Below are positions 17,965 to 27,994 of a DNA stretch of 64,000 bases, one piece after another (the stretch's first letter is position 1; each line of letters opens with the position of its first letter). The position numbers were made by a program, and so were the translations under genes. Source of the DNA: Methanosarcina sp. (GTDB lineage Archaea; Halobacteriota; Methanosarcinia; Methanosarcinales; Methanosarcinaceae). The DNA lies in contig NZ_JAQUVZ010000017.1 of NCBI RefSeq assembly GCF_028693135.1, forward strand, positions 1-64,000, in the 5' to 3' direction. Below the pieces are notes generated by a model. It had not been told where the DNA came from. It ran no database searches and worked only from the letters and a program-made list of their open reading frames with translations.

Positions 17965-18801
17965 GTGAAGATCATTAAAAAATTCAGTTTTTTTGTAATG
18001 GTAGTGCTTATTGCAGCAATGTTATTTGCTTCCGGCTGTTCTCAAAATGTACCTGAAAAAGATACAATTGAAGAAACAGAAAGTGAAGTGACAGAAGTGG
18101 TAACTGAAGAAGTAACCGAAGAAGCAAATGAAGCAGTAACTGAAGGATTAGGGGAAACAGAAGGGGAAAATGGATACAACCCTGTCATAAATCCTGATGA
18201 TTTTGTTGAGGTTATAGACAATCCTTATTTTCCGTTGACTCCAGGCACAACTTTTGTCTATGAAGGTGAGGATGAAGACGAAACGATAAGAGATGAGGTT
18301 TTTGTAACCAATAAAACCAGGACGGTAATGGGAGTAAATACAATTGTTGTCCGGGATCGGGTATTTGAAGATGAGGAATTGGTTGAAGAGACTTTTGATT
18401 GGTACGCTCAGGACAAAGACGGCAATGTCTGGTACTTCGGGGAGGATTCCAGAGATTATGAAGACGGAGAAGTGGTAAGTACTGCAGGTTCCTGGGAAGC
18501 CGGGGTTGACGGAGCTCAGCCTGGAATTCTAATGAAAGGGGATCCTCAGGTCGGCGATACTTATCGGCAGGAATACTATGCGGGTGAGGCCGAAGACATG
18601 GCTGAAGTTCTCTCTCTGAACGAATTGGTTACCGTTGCTTACGGTTCTTTTGAGGATTGCCTGAAAACAAAAGAATGGACTCCGCTTGAACCTGGCATTG
18701 AGGAAAACAAATATTATGCTGCCGGAACAGGTCCGGTTATGGAGATTGCGGTAAAAGGCGGATCAGAAAGGCTGGAACTTGTAGAAATCATCACTGAATA
18801 A
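17965..18801 (+). CDS. Acidic secreted lipoprotein
   Basis: The signal sequence (KKFSFFVMVVLIAAMLFASGC) ends in a lipobox ASGC, so Cys 25 is probably lipid-anchored outside the cell membrane. A low-complexity Glu/Thr/Val linker follows (about 35-65), then a beta-rich domain beginning INPDDFVEVIDNPYFPLTPG and containing TFVYEGE. This NPYFPLxPGTxxxYEG type domain is known from uncharacterised lipoproteins of bacteria and archaea. The start is GTG 17965, overlapping its own GGGGTGA ribosome binding site; a later ATG would remove the signal. It stands alone. The function is unknown. Confidence 0.85.
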   Translation: MKIIKKFSFFVMVVLIAAMLFASGCSQNVPEKDTIEETESEVTEVVTEEVTEEANEAVTEGLGETEGENGYNPVINPDDFVEVIDNPYFPLTPGTTFVYEGEDEDETIRDEVFVTNKTRTVMGVNTIVVRDRVFEDEELVEETFDWYAQDKDGNVWYFGEDSRDYEDGEVVSTAGSWEAGVDGAQPGILMKGDPQVGDTYRQEYYAGEAEDMAEVLSLNELVTVAYGSFEDCLKTKEWTPLEPGIEENKYYAAGTGPVMEIAVKGGSERLELVEIITE

Positions 18802-19454
18802 CAGGATTAACGACAGTTCAGAACGGGTTTGCAGAAATCAAGTACAGATATCAAGTACAGATGAGCCAGAATTTAAGACCTGTTATAGGGCTCATTATAA
18901 AACCCGTTCTTATATTTCCAGACGTAAATATTCAGACGTAAACGTTGGCGGACCCTGGTTAATTGGTTGTTATTATTTCGAAATGGCCGCAAATGCATAT
19001 TTCGTTCTTTATTTTCACGCGCCACACTCCGTTTTAACCCGCCTGCGTACAGTAGATAAAAATGAAATCATTAGCCACGCTGGGAAGTCTGACCCAGAAT
19101 ATCAACCATGCAGCCGGGGACGACCTAAATATCCGGACGTAAATATTTACTCAAGACTCTATGACCACCGATATTACGGAATAATGGATTAATACAGTTG
19201 AATCTTTTCCTTGTTTCCCGTGCCGTTTGGTGTTTCATCCTTTCTTTTCAACAGCCTGTTTTTTGGAATAAAATATTCTGAGGGTATAGTATAACCATCG
19301 TATATTGATCAGATATTGGGAAGTTCAATCATCGTTTGATAAATTGATTCTATATGAGTTTCTTGAATAAGAGAAGATTTTGACTGGAAACTAATATATA
19401 AATTTAAGATAGTGTAATTAGTACTTATATAAAATATAAGTATAGAGGTGTTTT
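18802..19454. other. Intergenic stretch, no recognised gene
   Basis: There are short direct repeats (AAGTACAGAT twice near 18839-18862; CAGACGTAAA twice near 18919-18940) and one weak open frame at 18983-19192 with no coding character. The promoter of the small Lys/Ala-rich gene, CTTATATAAAATATAAG at about 19425-19441, is at the right end. Confidence 0.6.
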
Positions 19455-19598
19455 ATGGTAAAAAATGCTTCAACGGAAAGTAGTCAAAAAACAGGAGCTT
19501 CTTGTGGAAAACCCCAGGCAAAAGCTCAAGCATCGGAAAATTCTGCAAAGAAGGACGCAAAAGCTGACCGCAAAACGTCCAAAGGTGCAAAGAAGTAA
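19455..19598 (+). CDS. Tiny Lys/Ala-rich basic protein, copy 1 (47 aa)
   Basis: ATG 19455 follows GAGGTG by four bases and a TATA box (TTATATAAAATATAAG) about 15 bases before that. The protein is 47 residues, rich in Lys, Ala and Ser, with the core CGKPQAKAQA and the tail KKDAKADRKTSKGAKK. It has no hydrophobic segment and looks disordered and strongly basic at the C-terminus. A paralogue follows at 19771 in the same orientation with matching promoter and downstream sequence. I do not know the family. A nucleic-acid-binding or small stress-related role is possible but unsupported. Confidence 0.7.
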   Translation: MVKNASTESSQKTGASCGKPQAKAQASENSAKKDAKADRKTSKGAKK

Positions 19599-19770
19599 AA
19601 ACAGACCAATAACTATCTGAAAGCCAATCCTTTCAGCAGCAGCTTATCAAGATTCAAGACTTCCTAGGAGTCTCTTAAATTAGTGAACATTCTGGTTGGA
19701 ATCTACCAGATATAATTGAAACAGATTATCTAAGCACTTGTATAATATATAAATATAGAGGTGTTTATTT

Positions 19771-19908
19771 ATGACAAAGACAATTGTTGATTCTCAAAAA
19801 GCAGGGGCAGCATATGGAAAACCCCAGGCAAACACTCCAGCACCGGCAATATATGCAAAGAAGGACGCAAAATATGAATGCAAACCGTCCAAAGGTGCAA
19901 GGAAGTAA
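19771..19908 (+). CDS. Tiny Lys/Ala-rich basic protein, copy 2 (45 aa)
   Basis: This is the tandem paralogue of 19455-19598: SQKAGAAYGKPQANTPA aligns with SQKTGASCGKPQAKAQA, and the tails KKDAKYECKPSKGARK and KKDAKADRKTSKGAKK align. It has the same TATATAAATATAGAGGTG leader and the same 3' flank (GCTTATCAAGATTCAAGACTTC). Codon changes are mostly amino-acid changing outside the conserved GKPQA and KKDAK blocks, while those blocks are kept, which suggests selection on them. The function is unknown. Confidence 0.7.
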   Translation: MTKTIVDSQKAGAAYGKPQANTPAPAIYAKKDAKYECKPSKGARK

Positions 19909-20222
19909 AAACAAACCAATCACCACTTAAAGCCAATTATCGCAGCAGTAGCTTATCAAGATTCAAGACTTCTTAAAACTGGTAATACACTAAATCTGTA
20001 ACATTAAGAGCTCAATCGTTACTGAAAAACGGAATAATAATTAATAAACAGAATAAGTTGCTGCTCTTAAATCAAATTTTCAGGATCCGGACTGCCAGAA
20101 ATAAGCAGTCCGGAGAACCCGATAAGATTAATCAGAAATGGATTTTTTATCTTTTTTGCTCTTTCAATCAAGATTCTTTTTCTTTCTTCTGTCAAGGGCG
20201 AAATTTTGGAATGCTACTGTTC

Positions 20223-21074
20223 TTAAATCAATTTCCTCGGCTGTTTATGTTCCGGCAAAACCGGCAGCTTCATGGTATTGATCAAAATGGGGCTTTCGAT
20301 ATCTTTTGCCCTTTCAATCACAAGTTCCTTTCCTTTCTGCGTGAGGGCAAAGAGAGGGATCGCAGCTGCAACTTGCACAAGCGGCTTTGCAAGTTCTCTG
20401 ATATATTTTGAGGCACAGCTGATTACAATGTCCGAATTTTCCAGCAGGCCCTTAGCTTCTTCCCGGCTGACACCTGTTACATGTACTGCGATGACCAGCA
20501 GGTCAAGCCCGAGTTTGGATTCGATTTCCCTGACTTTTGTGGCGGTTTCTGCACCTGCAACCGTAACTGCGATTTTTTTGTAACCAAGTTCCGCAGCTTT
20601 CCTGACCCCGCCTGCCGGGTCGATGGCTGCAGTTGAGGGAGCAAGCACGGTCCCTCCGCGCTCTTCTATCCCTTTGATGACCGCATCTATAGGTTCGGTT
20701 TCGACCAGACCGGACATCCTGCCTCCGATTCCCTGGACCAGTGCCGGGTTGCTGGAGATTACTGTTCCTGCGCCGTCACAGGCTGTTACGGTTGTTTCAA
20801 GGAAGCCGTTGTTGAGGCCACTCATCATTATTTCTGAGGCACCGAAAGCAACAACAGTTGTTTCAAATTCGAGCTTGCGTCTTTCTGTAAACATTCCTAA
20901 CTCGCTGATCCGGGCCTCCATGTTTTTCCGGATTTCTTCCGGGGTCATCTTCTGGACTCCCCGCAGCTTGACAAAGAGGGGGCACCATTCTACTTCCGGA
21001 GCCCCGACTTCCACGACTTTCCCGTCTTTTACGACTACCCTGGCTTTTCCCATCATTTCCATTATATGAGGCAT
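20223..21074 (-). CDS. Methanogenesis marker protein 8 (DUF2099), paralogue 1
   Basis: The 283-residue protein has the hallmarks of the marker-8 family, found in methanogens: the N-terminal VKDGKVVEVG.PEVEWCPLF block, FGASE, TACDGAGTVISSNPALVQG, GGRMSGLVETEPI, a Rossmann-like middle (GYKKIAVTVAGAE), the VHVTGVS block and CASKYIREL. The biochemical role is not known; a role in methanogenic cofactor or enzyme maturation is inferred from its distribution. GGGTGGT precedes ATG 21074. A very similar paralogue lies at 23519, and this copy keeps all conserved blocks, so both may be active. Confidence 0.78.
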   Translation of the reverse strand: MPHIMEMMGKARVVVKDGKVVEVGAPEVEWCPLFVKLRGVQKMTPEEIRKNMEARISELGMFTERRKLEFETTVVAFGASEIMMSGLNNGFLETTVTACDGAGTVISSNPALVQGIGGRMSGLVETEPIDAVIKGIEERGGTVLAPSTAAIDPAGGVRKAAELGYKKIAVTVAGAETATKVREIESKLGLDLLVIAVHVTGVSREEAKGLLENSDIVISCASKYIRELAKPLVQVAAAIPLFALTQKGKELVIERAKDIESPILINTMKLPVLPEHKQPRKLI

Positions 21075-21130
21075 AATAGACCACCCTCTAAGTACTGGAT
21101 AAAGTTGTTTTCGTTAAAAATAAGTGATTC

Positions 21131-21205
21131 TTATCTTGATTATTCTTATCTTGATTATTCTTATCTTGATTATTCTTATCTTGATTATTCTTATTTTGAT
21201 TATTC
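21131..21205. repeat. 15-bp tandem repeat, 5 copies, upstream of marker 8 paralogue 1
   Basis: Five copies of TTATCTTGATTATTC stand head to tail 57 bases upstream of the marker-8 start codon, in its promoter region. Confidence 0.9.
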
Positions 21206-21410
21206 TTAATTTAATGCTTCTTTTTCTGGTTTTACTTATTGTCTTAATAAATTACTTAATCTACAGGTTAAAATGAATCAATACCCACATCGAATTGAGT
21301 TTAAATGAAAATTAATAATGAATAATAAGCAACGGAAAGTGACTGATGAAAAGGCACAAAGAAAAGGCACAAAGAAAAGTGAATAATGAGCAATAAAGAA
21401 TTAAGAAGGA

Positions 21411-21431
21411 GGGCAGGACTTAAAGCCCTGC
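21411..21431 (-). terminator. Hairpin overlapping the stop codon of the MTH865-like gene
   Basis: On the minus strand, GCAGG-CTTTAAG-CCTGC forms a stem whose loop carries the TAA stop codon; TTCTTAATTCTTTATT follows. A very similar design ends the gene at 23519. Confidence 0.5.
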
Positions 21432-21659
21432 TCTGTCAACTATTGTGTCTGCCACGTGTTTTGCATCTTTGAATGGGAAATCTGCTGCTGTGAGCAATTT
21501 GCCTGCTTCTCCTGCAGTAACTGCAAGGTCGCCTGATCTGCATGTGGTGTCTGCTCCGGCAGGGAATGCAGCGAGTAATTCTTCAGGTGTGTTTATGGGA
21601 AACTTTGCGCCTTTAAGGCCGCCAACAATCTGTCCGTGAATATCATCTCTTACAGTCAT
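21420..21659 (-). CDS. MTH865-like family protein (EF-hand-like fold), 79 aa
   Basis: The sequence HGQIVGGLKGAKFPINTPEE, AFPAGADTTC and GDLAVTAGEAGKLL matches the MTH865-like family, small helical proteins with an EF-hand-like fold known mainly from methanogens. The family's function is not established. It is a single short gene on the same strand as the two marker-8 genes and lies between them. A GAGGGAT ribosome binding region precedes ATG 21659. Confidence 0.85.
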   Translation of the reverse strand: MTVRDDIHGQIVGGLKGAKFPINTPEELLAAFPAGADTTCRSGDLAVTAGEAGKLLTAADFPFKDAKHVADTIVDRAGL

Positions 21660-22158
21660 ATCTTATCCCTCAGATATTGTATTTTTACTTAAATTTTGTT
21701 TTTTCCCCGGTTTCGGGTTTTTTCTTTATCTGGACTTTTTATTTCTTTGCAGTTTGATTTCCTTTGGAGAATTCATCCTGCAATATCCTATTGGCGGGTT
21801 ATTGATATATACTTAATCGGCATTGGAATGTAGTTGGTGCATCACAGTACATCACAAAGACCTCTAAAGTTATCCAGACGCCCTTTCTGGCTGCAATCAT
21901 TAATATCGTGCCGGATGCCCTCAACGATTGCTTATCAAGCGGCTGCACGAATGCTAAAAACCCATTGAAATAAAATTTCTCTAAAGTAGGTAATAAGAGA
22001 ACCTTAAAAACGAAACTTAAAAACAAACCTTAAAAATGAAACTTAAAAAGAGAACAAATAGCCGGGAAAACCGACTACAGAAAAATGGGTCGCACAAGGA
22101 CCCAATACTTATTCTTAAGATACTCAAATCCATGAAAAAGGACGGCCATCCTCCTAAT
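21660..22158. other. Intergenic stretch with a possible gene fragment
   Basis: On the plus strand from about 21825 to 21973 one frame reads TKTSKVIQTPFLAAIINIVP and DALNDCLSSGC before a TAA, which looks protein-like but has no start or upstream part. It may be a relic. Repeated AAACTTAAAAA words lie at 22000-22050. Nothing else is recognised. Confidence 0.35.
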
Positions 22159-23501: not shown

Positions 23502-23519
23502 AACGGCTTTAAAGCCGTT
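23502..23519 (-). terminator. Perfect 18-bp palindrome ending marker 8 paralogue 2
   Basis: AACGGCTTTAAAGCCGTT begins directly at the stop codon of the gene at 23519; on the minus strand it is followed by ATTACTTTTTTT, the usual look of a stem-loop/oligo-T terminator. Confidence 0.65.
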
Positions 23520-24367
23520 TATTTTAAATCCCGGGGCTGCTTTTGTTCAGGAAGTACAGGCAGAGCCATGGTATTGATCAGAAGTGGGCTTTTGATATCT
23601 TTTGCCCTTTCGATCACAAGTTCTTTTCCTTTCTGGGTAAGGGCGAAAAGTGGGACTGCGGTTCCGACCTGAGCGAGGGGCTTTACCAGGTCCCTGACGT
23701 GCTTTGAGGCGCAGCTGGTTACGATATCTGAATTTTCTACCAGAGTCTGGGCTCCTTCCACGCTTAAACCTGTTACGTGGACCCCAATTACTATCAAATC
23801 CAGCCCAAGTTCGGCTTCAAGCTTCCGTAACTCTTTTGCGGTTTCCCCGAAAGCCACGGTTACTGCGATTTTTTTGTACCCGAGTTCTGCTGCCTTTTTT
23901 ACTCCCGCAACCGGGTCCATTACGGCAGTTGAGGGGTCAAGCACAATTCCGCCGCGTTCTGTGATTCCGTTTATGATGCCATCGATTGGCTCGGTTTCGA
24001 CCAGTCCCGACATCCTGCCGCCTATGCCCTGAACAAGGGTAGGATTATTGGAAATGACAGTTCCTGCGCCTTCACAGGCGGTCACGGTTGTGTCAAGCAA
24101 GCCTCTGCTCAGGCCTGTCATCATAACTTCAGATGCTCCAAATCCTACAAAGTCCTCGAGTTCCAGCTTGCGCTTTTCCGTAAACATCCCGAAATCGCTG
24201 ATTCTGAACTCCATATTCTTCTTGACTTCTTCAGGGGTGATCTTCTGGATCCCACGCATTTTGGCAAAGAGGGGACACCATTCGACTTCAGGCTCTCCTA
24301 CTTCGATTACTTTGCCATCCTTTACGACAACTCTTGTTTTTCCAAGTAATTCCATTATGTGAGGCAT
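23519..24367 (-). CDS. Methanogenesis marker protein 8 (DUF2099), paralogue 2
   Basis: The protein is 282 residues and aligns over its full length with 20223-21074. It has all conserved blocks (EPEVEWCPLFAKMRG, FGASEVMMTG, GAGTVISNNPTLVQGIGG, SGLVETEPIDG, HVTGLS, CASKHVRDL). Differences cluster in surface helices. ATG 24367 follows AGGTGG; an in-frame ATG further upstream (24382) has no such site. Two marker-8 genes so close suggest local duplication followed by divergence. The role is unknown, presumably in methanogenesis. Confidence 0.78.
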   Translation of the reverse strand: MPHIMELLGKTRVVVKDGKVIEVGEPEVEWCPLFAKMRGIQKITPEEVKKNMEFRISDFGMFTEKRKLELEDFVGFGASEVMMTGLSRGLLDTTVTACEGAGTVISNNPTLVQGIGGRMSGLVETEPIDGIINGITERGGIVLDPSTAVMDPVAGVKKAAELGYKKIAVTVAFGETAKELRKLEAELGLDLIVIGVHVTGLSVEGAQTLVENSDIVTSCASKHVRDLVKPLAQVGTAVPLFALTQKGKELVIERAKDIKSPLLINTMALPVLPEQKQPRDLK

Positions 24368-24597
24368 AGTTCCACCTTTCAAAATTGAGCAAAAATATGA
24401 TTGTTAAGAAATTCAAATCCGGTAAAAATTGCAGGTAAAGTTTGTGGTTGCTTATTTAATAGCTTATTGGTTTTGGGGTTTTGGTTCGATTTCTGGGTTT
24501 TTGAAGAAATTTTTATTGATCTGGATTGTGGTTTTGAAAATTACTCATGAATCATTGGATTCAAAGTGCGAAATTCTTTGAAAAAGTGAAATCAAGT

Positions 24598-24880
24598 CAT
24601 TCCCCAGATCCTTCAAGTTCCTTTAATTTATACTCGCAAAAGCCAATTATCCTCGGGTCTTAAATCGCCTTTCCTATCTCCAGGATTGCTTCAAAAACTC
24701 AATTGCTTTTCTGGGCTCTTCCAGACGGCTCTCTCAGACCCAAGACGGCTCTCTCAGATATAGTATGAGTATGCTCCCCAAATTTTCAAGGTGATTTCCT
24801 TCCCCGCGCCTGTCGCCTATTTCTCTGGAAATTTTCAGTGCTTGTTCGTAATATTTAATTGCTTTTTTCACTTAACCAGG
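24598..24880 (-). pseudogene. Decayed partial copy of the TPR gene at 26603
   Basis: The sequence aligns base by base with the 3' end of the TPR gene at 26603-27994 (shared GATCCTTCAAGTTCCTTTAA, GCCAATTATCCTC, CGCGCCTGTCGCCTATTTCT) but has internal stops, frameshifts and a local duplication (GACGGCTCTCTCAGA twice). The downstream flank is shared too (TGTGGTTTTGAAAAT). It therefore came from duplication of the gene end together with its flank. Confidence 0.75.
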
Positions 24881-25029
24881 TTGATAGTAAGTGAGTACAG
24901 GGTCACCAAAAACAAAACTCTTCATCTTATTGCTTAAAAGAACTTTTTCTTTGAGCAGATAAGCTGGTAGTAATCGCCTTTACAATGTTATGAGGGTAGT
25001 GTAGTCTCCCCAAATTTCAAGATAACAAA

Positions 25030-26016
25030 TTATTTTCGACCCATACAAAACAGCTTAAAGCCCTTTTTTTCTTTCAGGTCTTTTGAAACTCCTATTTTCT
25101 GTTTGTAATAGCGATCTGCTCTTTTTGTTTTTTTCAGATCCCTTAATTTTTCGATTAGAATTTCCTCTTGTCTCCTGTTACCTAATTCTCTGGAAATCAC
25201 GAGTGCCTGCCCATAACGTTCAATTGCTTTTTCTTTTTCTCCCAGAAAACTATATGTCAAACCTAACCTTTCAAGAGTTTGTCCTTCTTTATATTTTTCC
25301 CCAATCTCCCTCAATATTTCAAGTTCCTGTTCACTATATTCTGCTACTTTTTTCATTTCTCCCAGGCGATTATATGCTATCACCAGATTCTTGAGAATAT
25401 CTCCTTCTCCCCGCTTATCCCCTATTTCCCTTGACATTTTGAGGGTTTGATCAAAGTATCCAATTGCTGCCCTTATTTCCCCCACCTGATAGCATAAGTT
25501 ACCCAGGTTTCCCAGGTTATTTCTTTCTCCTGTCAAATTCCCGGTTTCTCTGGCGATTTTAAGTGCACGCTCATAGAATTCAATTGCTTTTCCTGTTTCT
25601 CCCAAAAAACCGTATGCTATTCCTAAATTCCCTATAACAGCTCCTTCAATTTCTATGTTTCCTATTTCGCAGGAGATTTCCAGAGCCTGTTCATAGTATT
25701 CAATAGCTTTCTCTATCTCTCCTAAACGGCTATAGACTAATCCTATATTTTCGAAAGCTAGTTCTTCTCCTTGCCTATCGCCTATTTCTTTAAAAATCTC
25801 TACTGCCTGCTGGTAATATTCAATAGCTTTTCTTATTTCTCCAAGATGGCTGTAAGCTAAACCCAATCTTCCAAGGTTATTCCCCTCTTCCCTTCTATTT
25901 CCACTTTCCCTGGAATTTTTAAGATCCAGCTCACAAATTTCAATTGCTTTTTTGCTTTCTTTTACATCATTGTGTGTCAATCCAAAATTTACGGACCTGT
26001 TTTTTGCTTCTCGCAT
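25030..26016 (-). CDS. Tetratricopeptide repeat protein (328 aa)
   Basis: Six complete and one partial 40-residue TPR units (consensus AIEYYEQALEIxxEIGDRxGEG, then xxLGNLGxAYxxLGEIxK) cover residues about 22-300. This is the 40-residue LGN/MalT-like type that forms a superhelix binding peptides or other proteins. The basic tail reads KKGFKLFCMGRK. The gene has its own GGGGGGAA ribosome binding site, 586 bases downstream of the TPR/iSTAND-like gene on the same strand. The repeats resemble those of that protein, so it is probably derived from it. It may be an adaptor or competitor in the same system. Confidence 0.85.
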   Translation of the reverse strand: MREAKNRSVNFGLTHNDVKESKKAIEICELDLKNSRESGNRREEGNNLGRLGLAYSHLGEIRKAIEYYQQAVEIFKEIGDRQGEELAFENIGLVYSRLGEIEKAIEYYEQALEISCEIGNIEIEGAVIGNLGIAYGFLGETGKAIEFYERALKIARETGNLTGERNNLGNLGNLCYQVGEIRAAIGYFDQTLKMSREIGDKRGEGDILKNLVIAYNRLGEMKKVAEYSEQELEILREIGEKYKEGQTLERLGLTYSFLGEKEKAIERYGQALVISRELGNRRQEEILIEKLRDLKKTKRADRYYKQKIGVSKDLKEKKGFKLFCMGRK

Positions 26017-26269
26017 ACTTGTTCCCCCCTACAGGAATTATATATTCTATGCATGTCGTTTATTTATCTTTTCTTTTTCCCTGTAGTCTTCATGATCACT
26101 TTTTTAAAAACCATCTAAAATACACTAATTATTTTTTAATAATGTTTTAAACCAAGATAAGTTTTTTCTTTTCAAAGATAAAGATCAGACAACGGAAGTT
26201 TCAATATAAACTCTTAATTTCCATTCATTTTCACAGTCCAAGGAAAATTATAAAGAAACCGCTCGTAGA

Positions 26270-26405
26270 GCTGTAGTAGAAGCTCCAGACGTTCTAAGAA
26301 GCAATACTTCCAGTGTTACTGCTTTGATAAAAAGTGTCCGAATTTAATTAAACAGTAAACAAAAAAAGAGTTGAAGAAAATCAGAGAATAAATTTCCTGA
26401 TTATT
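26270..26405 (-). repeat. Partial dispersed repeat (variant D)
   Basis: It shares TTCTAAGAAGCAATACTTCCAG, in pieces, and GAAAATCAGAGAATAAATTTCC with 31735-31850, but the GC-rich module A is degenerate here. It is a relic of the same repeat family as at 29520 and 31684. Confidence 0.45.
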
Positions 26406-26551
26406 GGCTTGTGGTTTTGAAAATCACTTTCTCGGTTGTTGGGTTTGAAATGTAAAATTCGTTGATTACTGCAACCTGAGCCGAAAATTCATTGCTTCTT
26501 TACTTTCAATTTATGACCGGGTTTCCAGCTCGAATCTTTCCCCGGCAACCC

Positions 26552-26570
26552 CCGTTTGCGAAGCAAACGG
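26552..26570 (-). terminator. Stem-loop behind the TPR/iSTAND-like gene
   Basis: CCGTTTGC-GAA-GCAAACGG is a perfect 8-bp stem with a three-base loop, 33 bases past the stop codon at 26603 on the minus strand. It may end transcription or be a repeat hairpin; no long T-run follows. Confidence 0.45.
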
Positions 26571-26602
26571 CTTTTCCCATAAAATTAAAAAAGAAGATAA
26601 AA

Positions 26603-27994
26603 TCATTCATCAGATCCTTCAAGTTCCTTTAATTTCTGCTCGCAAAAGCCAATTATCCTCAGGTCTTCAATTGCCTTTCCTATCTCCAGGGATTGCTTCA
26701 AAAACTCAATTGCTTTTCTGGGTTCGCCCAGATCACTGTATGCGTCCCCCAGATTTCCAAGGCGATTTCCTTCTCCGCGCCTGTCGCCTATTTCTTTGGA
26801 AATTTTCAGTGCCTGTTCGTAATATTCAATTGCTTTTTTCGGCTCTCCCAGACTATAGTATACTGACCCCATACTTCCAAGACAATTTCCTTCTCCACGC
26901 CTGTCGCCTATTTCTCTTGCAATTTTCAGTGCCTGTTCATAATATTCAATTGCTTTTCTGGGTTCGCCCAGATAACTGTATGCTAACCCCAGATTTCCAA
27001 GGTCTGCACCTTCTCCGCGCCTGTCTCCTGTCTCTTTAGCGATTTTTAGCGCCTGTCCATAATATTCAATCGCTTTTCTCACAGAACCAAGCTGTTCATA
27101 TATGACGCCAAAGTTTTTCAGAATATATCCTTCTTCTTTCTTGTTCCCGATTTCTTTTGCTATTACCAAAGCCTGTTCTGAATATTCAAGAGCCTTTTTC
27201 AAATCTCCAAGCTGGTAGTATGTTATCCCGAGTTTGCTGTATATCGATTCATTTAGATTCTTGTTGTCGAGTTTGGATGATATCAATGCAGCAGTTTCAA
27301 GGTATTTTACAGCTTCTTTTGAATGACCAAAAAATAGTGTAATAGTTCCGAGGTTGTAATTCCAGTAAGCAAGTTTATAGGGGTCTTTTATTCCCCTGTC
27401 CTTAAACTCTTTTATTAAGTTCAAATAATACTCAATTAGGTCTTCAAGTCCCTTTTTGTCCAGACCATCGAAATCCTCAAATTCAAACATTGGGCTGGAA
27501 GTTATTTCTCGCTTTACATCAAACTCAAAAATAGTGGTTCTCCAGGAGAAAAAATCCTGTGCCTCGTCAAGAATTAAATTAAGTGATGCACTGTTAATCC
27601 AGATAAGTATTGGGTGTTTGATTTCCAGGAATTTCTCTCGCATCATATTTAGTAAGAGGAGAACCTCGGATTTTCCACTAATGTTTTTCGTTTTTACTGC
27701 GCTATCAATCCCAAAAACAAAAAATGCAACTTTTTTATTTTCCTCAAGTTTTGAATTGTATAAATCTGATTTAGTGGTTTCCTCTAAAAGCTGGAAAAGA
27801 TTGGTAGATTCCTCATTCATTTCAAGGTTGTAAATGTGAATTCTACTGTGTACCCTCTCAAAAATTTCCTTGCAGATTGTATCACATAAAACTGGTTCGT
27901 TACAGCGCACAAATGCAATTGTGCAGTCCTCGGAAAGATCAAGAAGTGTAACTATTTCTTCAATTTTCATTAAATGAGAAGGGTCCAGTTCCAT
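26603..27994 (-). CDS. TPR protein with N-terminal inactive-STAND-like domain (463 aa)
   Basis: Residues 1-160 form a P-loop-NTPase-like alpha/beta domain without a Walker A motif; strands KVAFFVFGID and HPILIWINSASL, then LDEAQDFFSWRTTIFEFD (143-160). The last motif (xxxDFWSWRxxxFEF) recurs in bacterial TPR proteins next to GHRGSGKS-type ATPases, and it fits what has been called iSTAND (inactive STAND) in conflict systems. From about 205 to 455 there are six TPRs of 40 residues, the last four nearly identical. The gene follows the AAA+ ATPase at 28062 by 67 bases on the same strand, so they form a two-gene operon. Predicted cytosolic, probably a sensor or effector-recruiting partner of the ATPase. 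Confidence 0.8.
   Translation of the reverse strand: MELDPSHLMKIEEIVTLLDLSEDCTIAFVRCNEPVLCDTICKEIFERVHSRIHIYNLEMNEESTNLFQLLEETTKSDLYNSKLEENKKVAFFVFGIDSAVKTKNISGKSEVLLLLNMMREKFLEIKHPILIWINSASLNLILDEAQDFFSWRTTIFEFDVKREITSSPMFEFEDFDGLDKKGLEDLIEYYLNLIKEFKDRGIKDPYKLAYWNYNLGTITLFFGHSKEAVKYLETAALISSKLDNKNLNESIYSKLGITYYQLGDLKKALEYSEQALVIAKEIGNKKEEGYILKNFGVIYEQLGSVRKAIEYYGQALKIAKETGDRRGEGADLGNLGLAYSYLGEPRKAIEYYEQALKIAREIGDRRGEGNCLGSMGSVYYSLGEPKKAIEYYEQALKISKEIGDRRGEGNRLGNLGDAYSDLGEPRKAIEFLKQSLEIGKAIEDLRIIGFCEQKLKELEGSDE

Follow-up and report, generated by a model that had tools for sequence, protein, structure and literature searches.

Two tiny neighbouring genes in the analysed window, a 64,000-nucleotide stretch of a Methanosarcina genome, are, as judged by sequence comparison, real members of a family found only in Methanosarcina. 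By the same evidence the family is protein-coding under moderate constraint, because the reading frame is kept across species and omega is about 0.47. The inverted repeat in its 3' flank is shown, by comparison of the aligned arms, to be a conserved pairing.

Distribution and coding constraint of the family

The first-pass annotation had described two ORFs of 47 and 45 residues, each preceded by GAGGTG, and both ORFs and both motifs lie where it placed them (Table 1); translation gives the peptides MVKNASTESSQKTGASCGKPQAKAQASENSAKKDAKADRKTSKGAKK for copy a and MTKTIVDSQKAGAAYGKPQANTPAPAIYAKKDAKYECKPSKGARK for copy b. Leader, ORF and 3' flank form a tandem repeat with a period of about 310 bp (309-313 bp spacing), in which the copies are 83% identical over 130 nt, 86% over 50 nt of the 3' flank and 88% over the 34 nt surrounding the Shine-Dalgarno site, so that the reported duplication of gene and 3' flank holds at 83-88% identity. 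The GKPQA and KKDAK blocks, said to be common to both copies, are present, and their G-K and K-K core is kept in the family alignment. The genome holds no further paralogues besides copies a and b.

Table 1. Features of the small-gene locus (window coordinates)
Feature	Position	Strand	Basis or remark
Copy a, 47 aa, Lys/Ala-rich	19455-19598	+	ORF list, family searches, codon test
Copy b, 45 aa	19771-19908	+	ORF list; orthologous to last copies in G008 and G021
Probable TATA box, copy a (AAACTAATATATAAATTT)	19388-19405	+	Aligned with AAACTTATATATAACTT at about -70; promoter role inferred
AT-rich 5' leader block, copy a (TATA box of the first-pass annotation)	19420-19443	+	Short hairpin fold in copy a
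Shine-Dalgarno GAGGTG, copy a	19445-19450	+	Kept across the genus
Duplicated leader block and Shine-Dalgarno region, copy b	19733-19766	+	GAGGTG at 19758-19763
Proximal hairpin arm 3' of copy a	19635-19649	+	Own distal arm absent in window genome
3' hairpin, proximal arm (AGCAGTAGCTTAT)	19944-19956	+	Arm alignment and pairing tests
3' hairpin, distal arm (ATAAGTTGCTGCT)	20053-20065	+	Arm alignment, folding, pairing tests
Third methanogenesis-marker-8 gene, 3'-end remnant	20067-20195, up to 20222	-	ORF MTEERKRILIERAKKIKNPFLINLIG..., likeness to C-terminal end of 20223-21074 judged by eye
Methanogenesis marker 8 (DUF2099), convergent neighbour	20223-21074	-	PF09872 E 2e-111; TIGR03275 E 2e-117

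From the pair itself it had been concluded that the short frames are selected. Between the two copies, NG86 counts 5.5 synonymous and 26.5 nonsynonymous differences (dN 0.32, dS 0.21; omega about 1.5), and since dN is about equal to dS, selection is not readable from the window pair and becomes visible only between species. A GY codon model of 26 copies and 44 codons yielded an omega of 0.46-0.48, with omega fixed at 1 costing 19.3 log units (2dlnL 38.6, 1 df); the claim of selection therefore stands between species, while its derivation from two copies was unsound. In neutral nucleotide simulations on the same tree, conservative as to branch lengths, a mean of 49% of copies stayed stop-free under coding base composition and 24% under AT-rich composition, and all 26 frames did so in 1/1000 and 0/1000 runs, respectively. 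Ascertainment by profile is biased to intact frames, and a frame-blind DNA search likewise recovered mainly intact copies.

A profile search of 238 genomes in all located the family in 23 of the 31 Methanosarcina genomes, in 0/81 other genomes of the taxonomic family and in 0/207 other genomes of the class; the one match that a single-sequence search gave outside the genus but within the taxonomic family (G054, E 0.09) lay inside a 442-aa frame and was gone with the profile. Two copies are present in G000 and G008, three in G021 and one in every other carrier. The earlier statement that no family was known for these peptides agrees with the lack of significant matches in Pfam, NCBIfam, PHROGs and PDB, and a scan of 18000-22000 against Rfam with an E cutoff of 1 was likewise empty. 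An origin from phage or plasmid was rejected, as no relative occurs among 2.9 million viral contigs or in PLSDB.

The small gene stands tail-to-tail with marker 8 wherever the contig extends far enough, and nearly always overall, while its opposite side is usually occupied by a putative ABC-transporter membrane protein gene; in G014 and G016 it is the second marker-8 paralogue that adjoins the small gene. The window locus, 96% identical to that of G008 in a DNA search, carries a marker-8 remnant, similar to one in G002, that separates the small genes from the intact neighbour at 20223-21074, and a second intact marker-8 paralogue at 23519-24382. Several further elements were observed in this region. 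Upstream of the small genes, 17965-18801 encodes a putative lipoprotein with a signal peptide-like start and no Pfam or NCBIfam match, whose gene is also upstream in G027 and G001; G008 lacks it at this place and has the ABC membrane gene as its neighbour on that side. A strong, short palindrome (CCGGACTGC...GCAGTCCGG) at 20092-20116, in the convergent intergenic space, is possibly a terminator in either direction. Tandem repeats of the cttgattattcttat type lie just 5' of the marker 8 start (21130-21200), and a TPR-repeat-like gene cluster at 24734-27994 contains near-identical 'GEPRKAIEYYEQALKI' units.

Comparison of the loci indicates that the small gene is lost or truncated several times in Methanosarcina. 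It is reduced to its 3' end in G010, its place is taken by unrelated DNA in G011 and G023, and in G001 the spot is fused to the end of the upstream gene, which leaves it without a promoter, and a frameshift follows the start. The gene is thus dispensable over evolution, and since omega is not low and losses recur, its role would be minor or condition-specific. Frameshifted orthologues or a dN/dS near one had been named in advance as signs against selected genes: the frame is kept in orthologues and omega over the 26 copies lies well below 1, but the G001 copy is frameshifted and promoter-less, several genomes are without the gene, dN/dS is near or above 1 between the window copies, and the copy b clade is indistinguishable from neutral.

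A predicted polycation and its proposed role

Family peptides comprise 41-52 aa, of which K makes up 27%, A 17%, S 11%, G 8% and P 8%, with no W or F. Every copy has a pI of 9.8-10.8 and a net charge of +6 to +13, concentrated in the C-terminal half. AlphaFold2 returned no secondary structure (mean pLDDT 60.5, pTM 0.11) from an alignment of 11 sequences, whose shallowness also lowers its confidence, and the peptide is accordingly predicted to be an intrinsically disordered polycation. The family alignment has invariant K and G and a core reading GK(P/T)QAK.

Tentatively, and with slightly less than even confidence, the locus is read as a Methanosarcina-specific gene that would be transcribed from its own promoter into a short mRNA led by a Shine-Dalgarno site, whose 3' flank forms a hairpin that would stabilise or terminate the transcript. 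This mRNA would encode a 41-52-residue disordered, lysine-rich polycation that, to go by its composition, could bind DNA, RNA or a different polyanion, for example polyphosphate, through its charge, much as a histone tail of the H1 type does, and would act as a dispensable accessory factor. Composition suggests nucleic acid as the most likely polyanion; an acidic protein or a membrane as the target would also agree with so much lysine.

The latter possibility leads to a small-protein regulator, a basic peptide that would dock on an enzyme or a membrane complex at an acidic face, which is considered rather unlikely. Precedents exist in M. mazei, where MtrI and MtrR are reported to act on the Mtr complex and another small protein on ammonium transport (PMC12774963, PMC13370731, PMC10714827), and the invariant residues and GK(P/T)QAK core suggest some sequence specificity. 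However, a peptide without W or F that AlphaFold2 leaves structureless offers no hydrophobic or folded interface, and no co-occurring partner gene was found besides convergent marker 8. Two other roles were rejected. A small toxin of a type I toxin-antitoxin system does not agree with a GRAVY of -0.9 to -1.7 and the lack of a hydrophobic membrane-spanning stretch, and a leader peptide or attenuator does not agree with the next gene, marker 8, being convergent rather than co-directional downstream.

Conserved pairing in the 3' flank

The 3' flank contains a 15-bp inverted repeat with compensatory changes. Its proximal arm, with the consensus AGGCAGTAGCTTATC, lies just 3' of the stop codon, and the reverse complement follows 100-320 nt further, beside the marker-8 stop codon or its remnant. 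With arms placed by likeness to each arm's own consensus and not by per-genome complementarity, 90.8% of 360 cells were paired in the intended register, against 25-56% in slid registers and 87.6% after shuffling, no shuffle attaining the observed figure. Both sides had changed in 18 cells, compared with 7.9 in shuffles (0/500); the pairs with a double change, 4, were not above shuffles. When whole distal arms were dealt among species, the observed pairing was reached in 4/5000 permutations. Compensation is clear at one pair that alternates between A-U and G-C (11 vs 11 genomes) and at a second that alternates between U-A and C-G; G007, G025 and G015 add single cases.

In G021 an arm pair is present at each of the three copies, indicating that small gene and hairpin move as a unit. 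For the window, a distal arm exists with copy b only. The duplicated 3' tail of the first-pass annotation is indeed duplicated (86%, 50 nt), and the copied tail proves to be one arm of the conserved hairpin. The hairpin may stabilise or end the transcript. A mobile repeat was rejected, as the arm motif GCAGYAGCTTATCA is not genome-wide and has no more than five matches per genome at up to one mismatch. Within the hairpin loop of G029 (L034:1627-1881), tandem copies of a short unit (GGAAAATACATGGAGCACAACC...) were observed.

The same helix, kept with compensatory changes and duplicated together with the gene in G021, would also suit a dual-function or mainly RNA gene, whose transcript, ending in the hairpin, would regulate targets, perhaps the mRNA of convergent marker 8 through 3'-end overlap, with the peptide secondary. 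On the small gene's strand, the inner 13 pairs hold 28 G-U pairs against 10 A-C mismatches, an excess suggesting that selection acts on the RNA of the small gene and not on the opposite RNA, in a count that takes related sequences as independent. Moreover, the M. mazei Ribo-seq catalogue places 64 of 314 newly found translated small ORFs on known sRNAs (PMC11456600). This explanation is nevertheless unlikely given the clear coding signal and the lack of an Rfam match; conservation is poor in the loop and over most of the 3' flank, copy a's leader and ORF fold no better than shuffles (z -1.46), and the 3' flank of copy b folds only weakly better than they do (z = -1.7, more exactly -1.69). The corresponding flank of G022 reaches z = -4.8.

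Initiation, uneven constraint and comparison with known systems

Each copy had been credited with its own TATA box, in a duplicated AT-rich block at 19420-19439 and 19733-19752. This block, at -35 to -16 from the ATG, is unlikely to be a TATA box, because it leaves too short a distance to the ATG for an mRNA carrying the Shine-Dalgarno site. The better candidate for copy a is probably AAACTwATATATAA at about -70, which is kept in copy a and in nearly all single-copy species and is degenerate in copy b and in G021 copies b and c. Judging by this degeneration, copy b may be expressed differently or read through from copy a. A strict promoter and leader pattern found 0 matches, own genome included, being too strict.

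GAGGTG or a near variant precedes the start of nearly every copy at a near-fixed spacing; in G006 it reads GAGATG. Three lineages, namely G007, the pair G029/G006 and the pair G014/G016, have ATA where the others have ATG, with frame and Shine-Dalgarno region otherwise retained, and the gene-tree positions of these lineages imply three separate changes. An in-frame GTG within the Shine-Dalgarno site offers an alternative start in G014 and G016, while G007, G029 and G006 have no in-frame ATG, GTG or TTG 5' of the conserved peptide. In the ATA lineages translation may start weakly at AUA, or decay may be at an early stage. Pooling the pairs G029/G006 and G014/G016, 11/24 differences are synonymous, with P = 0.01 against a site fraction of 0.226 and P = 0.07 if transitions raise that fraction to 0.30. 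A literature search retrieved no paper on AUA starts or on marker 8 in Methanosarcina.

Constraint is unevenly spread over the tree. Omega is 0.44 (2dlnL 9.9) in a clade nicknamed here mazei-type, 0.48 (2dlnL 17.4) in one nicknamed barkeri-type, and 0.25 (2dlnL 8.1) in the group G028/G004/G026/G015; for the copy b orthologues (0.57, 2dlnL 1.5) and for G019/G029/G006, two of them ATA-start genomes (0.77, 2dlnL 0.4), it does not differ significantly from neutrality. These last two values, dN about equal to dS between the window copies, the losses and the broken G001 copy, and the ATA replacements would be expected of a decaying relic drifting in much of the genus, window copy b included, which is improbable since 26 copies, long diverged, still keep their frame, their charge and the Shine-Dalgarno site, and omega is as low as 0.25 in one group and 0.44-0.48 in two large clades. 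Improbable as well is a bifunctional locus in which polycation and functional long-range 3' hairpin share one mRNA and repeated ATG-to-ATA changes tune start strength; if true, it would show archaea naturally initiating at AUA.

With these peptides a genus-wide and apparently undescribed gene family is added to Methanosarcina, model methanogens few of whose small proteins are characterised. It offers direct tests of the role of short disordered polycations in archaea, of the AUA translation start in vivo and of the purpose of a conserved hairpin between convergent genes, at a locus adjoining methanogenesis marker 8.

Small basic chromosomal proteins of Methanosarcina include MC1 and Alba, which have folded domains. 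The peptides described here are likewise small and basic and occur in the same organisms, but have no predicted fold and no Pfam or PDB match. Among histone-H1-like lysine-rich proteins, bacterial AlgP is associated with polyphosphate granules (PMC9239181); compared by sequence and composition only, the Methanosarcina peptide resembles it in being K/A/P-rich, strongly basic and predicted to be disordered, yet is much shorter, lacks KPAA repeats and gives no significant Pfam, NCBIfam or PDB match that would indicate homology to the H1 or AlgP family. As for the M. mazei spRNA and small-ORF proteins, the two that the catalogue treats in detail, one a hydrophobic membrane helix and the other a protein with four cysteines (PMC11456600), are unlike the basic peptide. 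With that class it nonetheless shares an intergenic position, a length below 70 aa, an expected transcript of its own and conservation only within Methanosarcina, and, at 41-52 aa with an omega of 0.46-0.48, it belongs with the constrained coding ORFs that do not exceed 70 aa.
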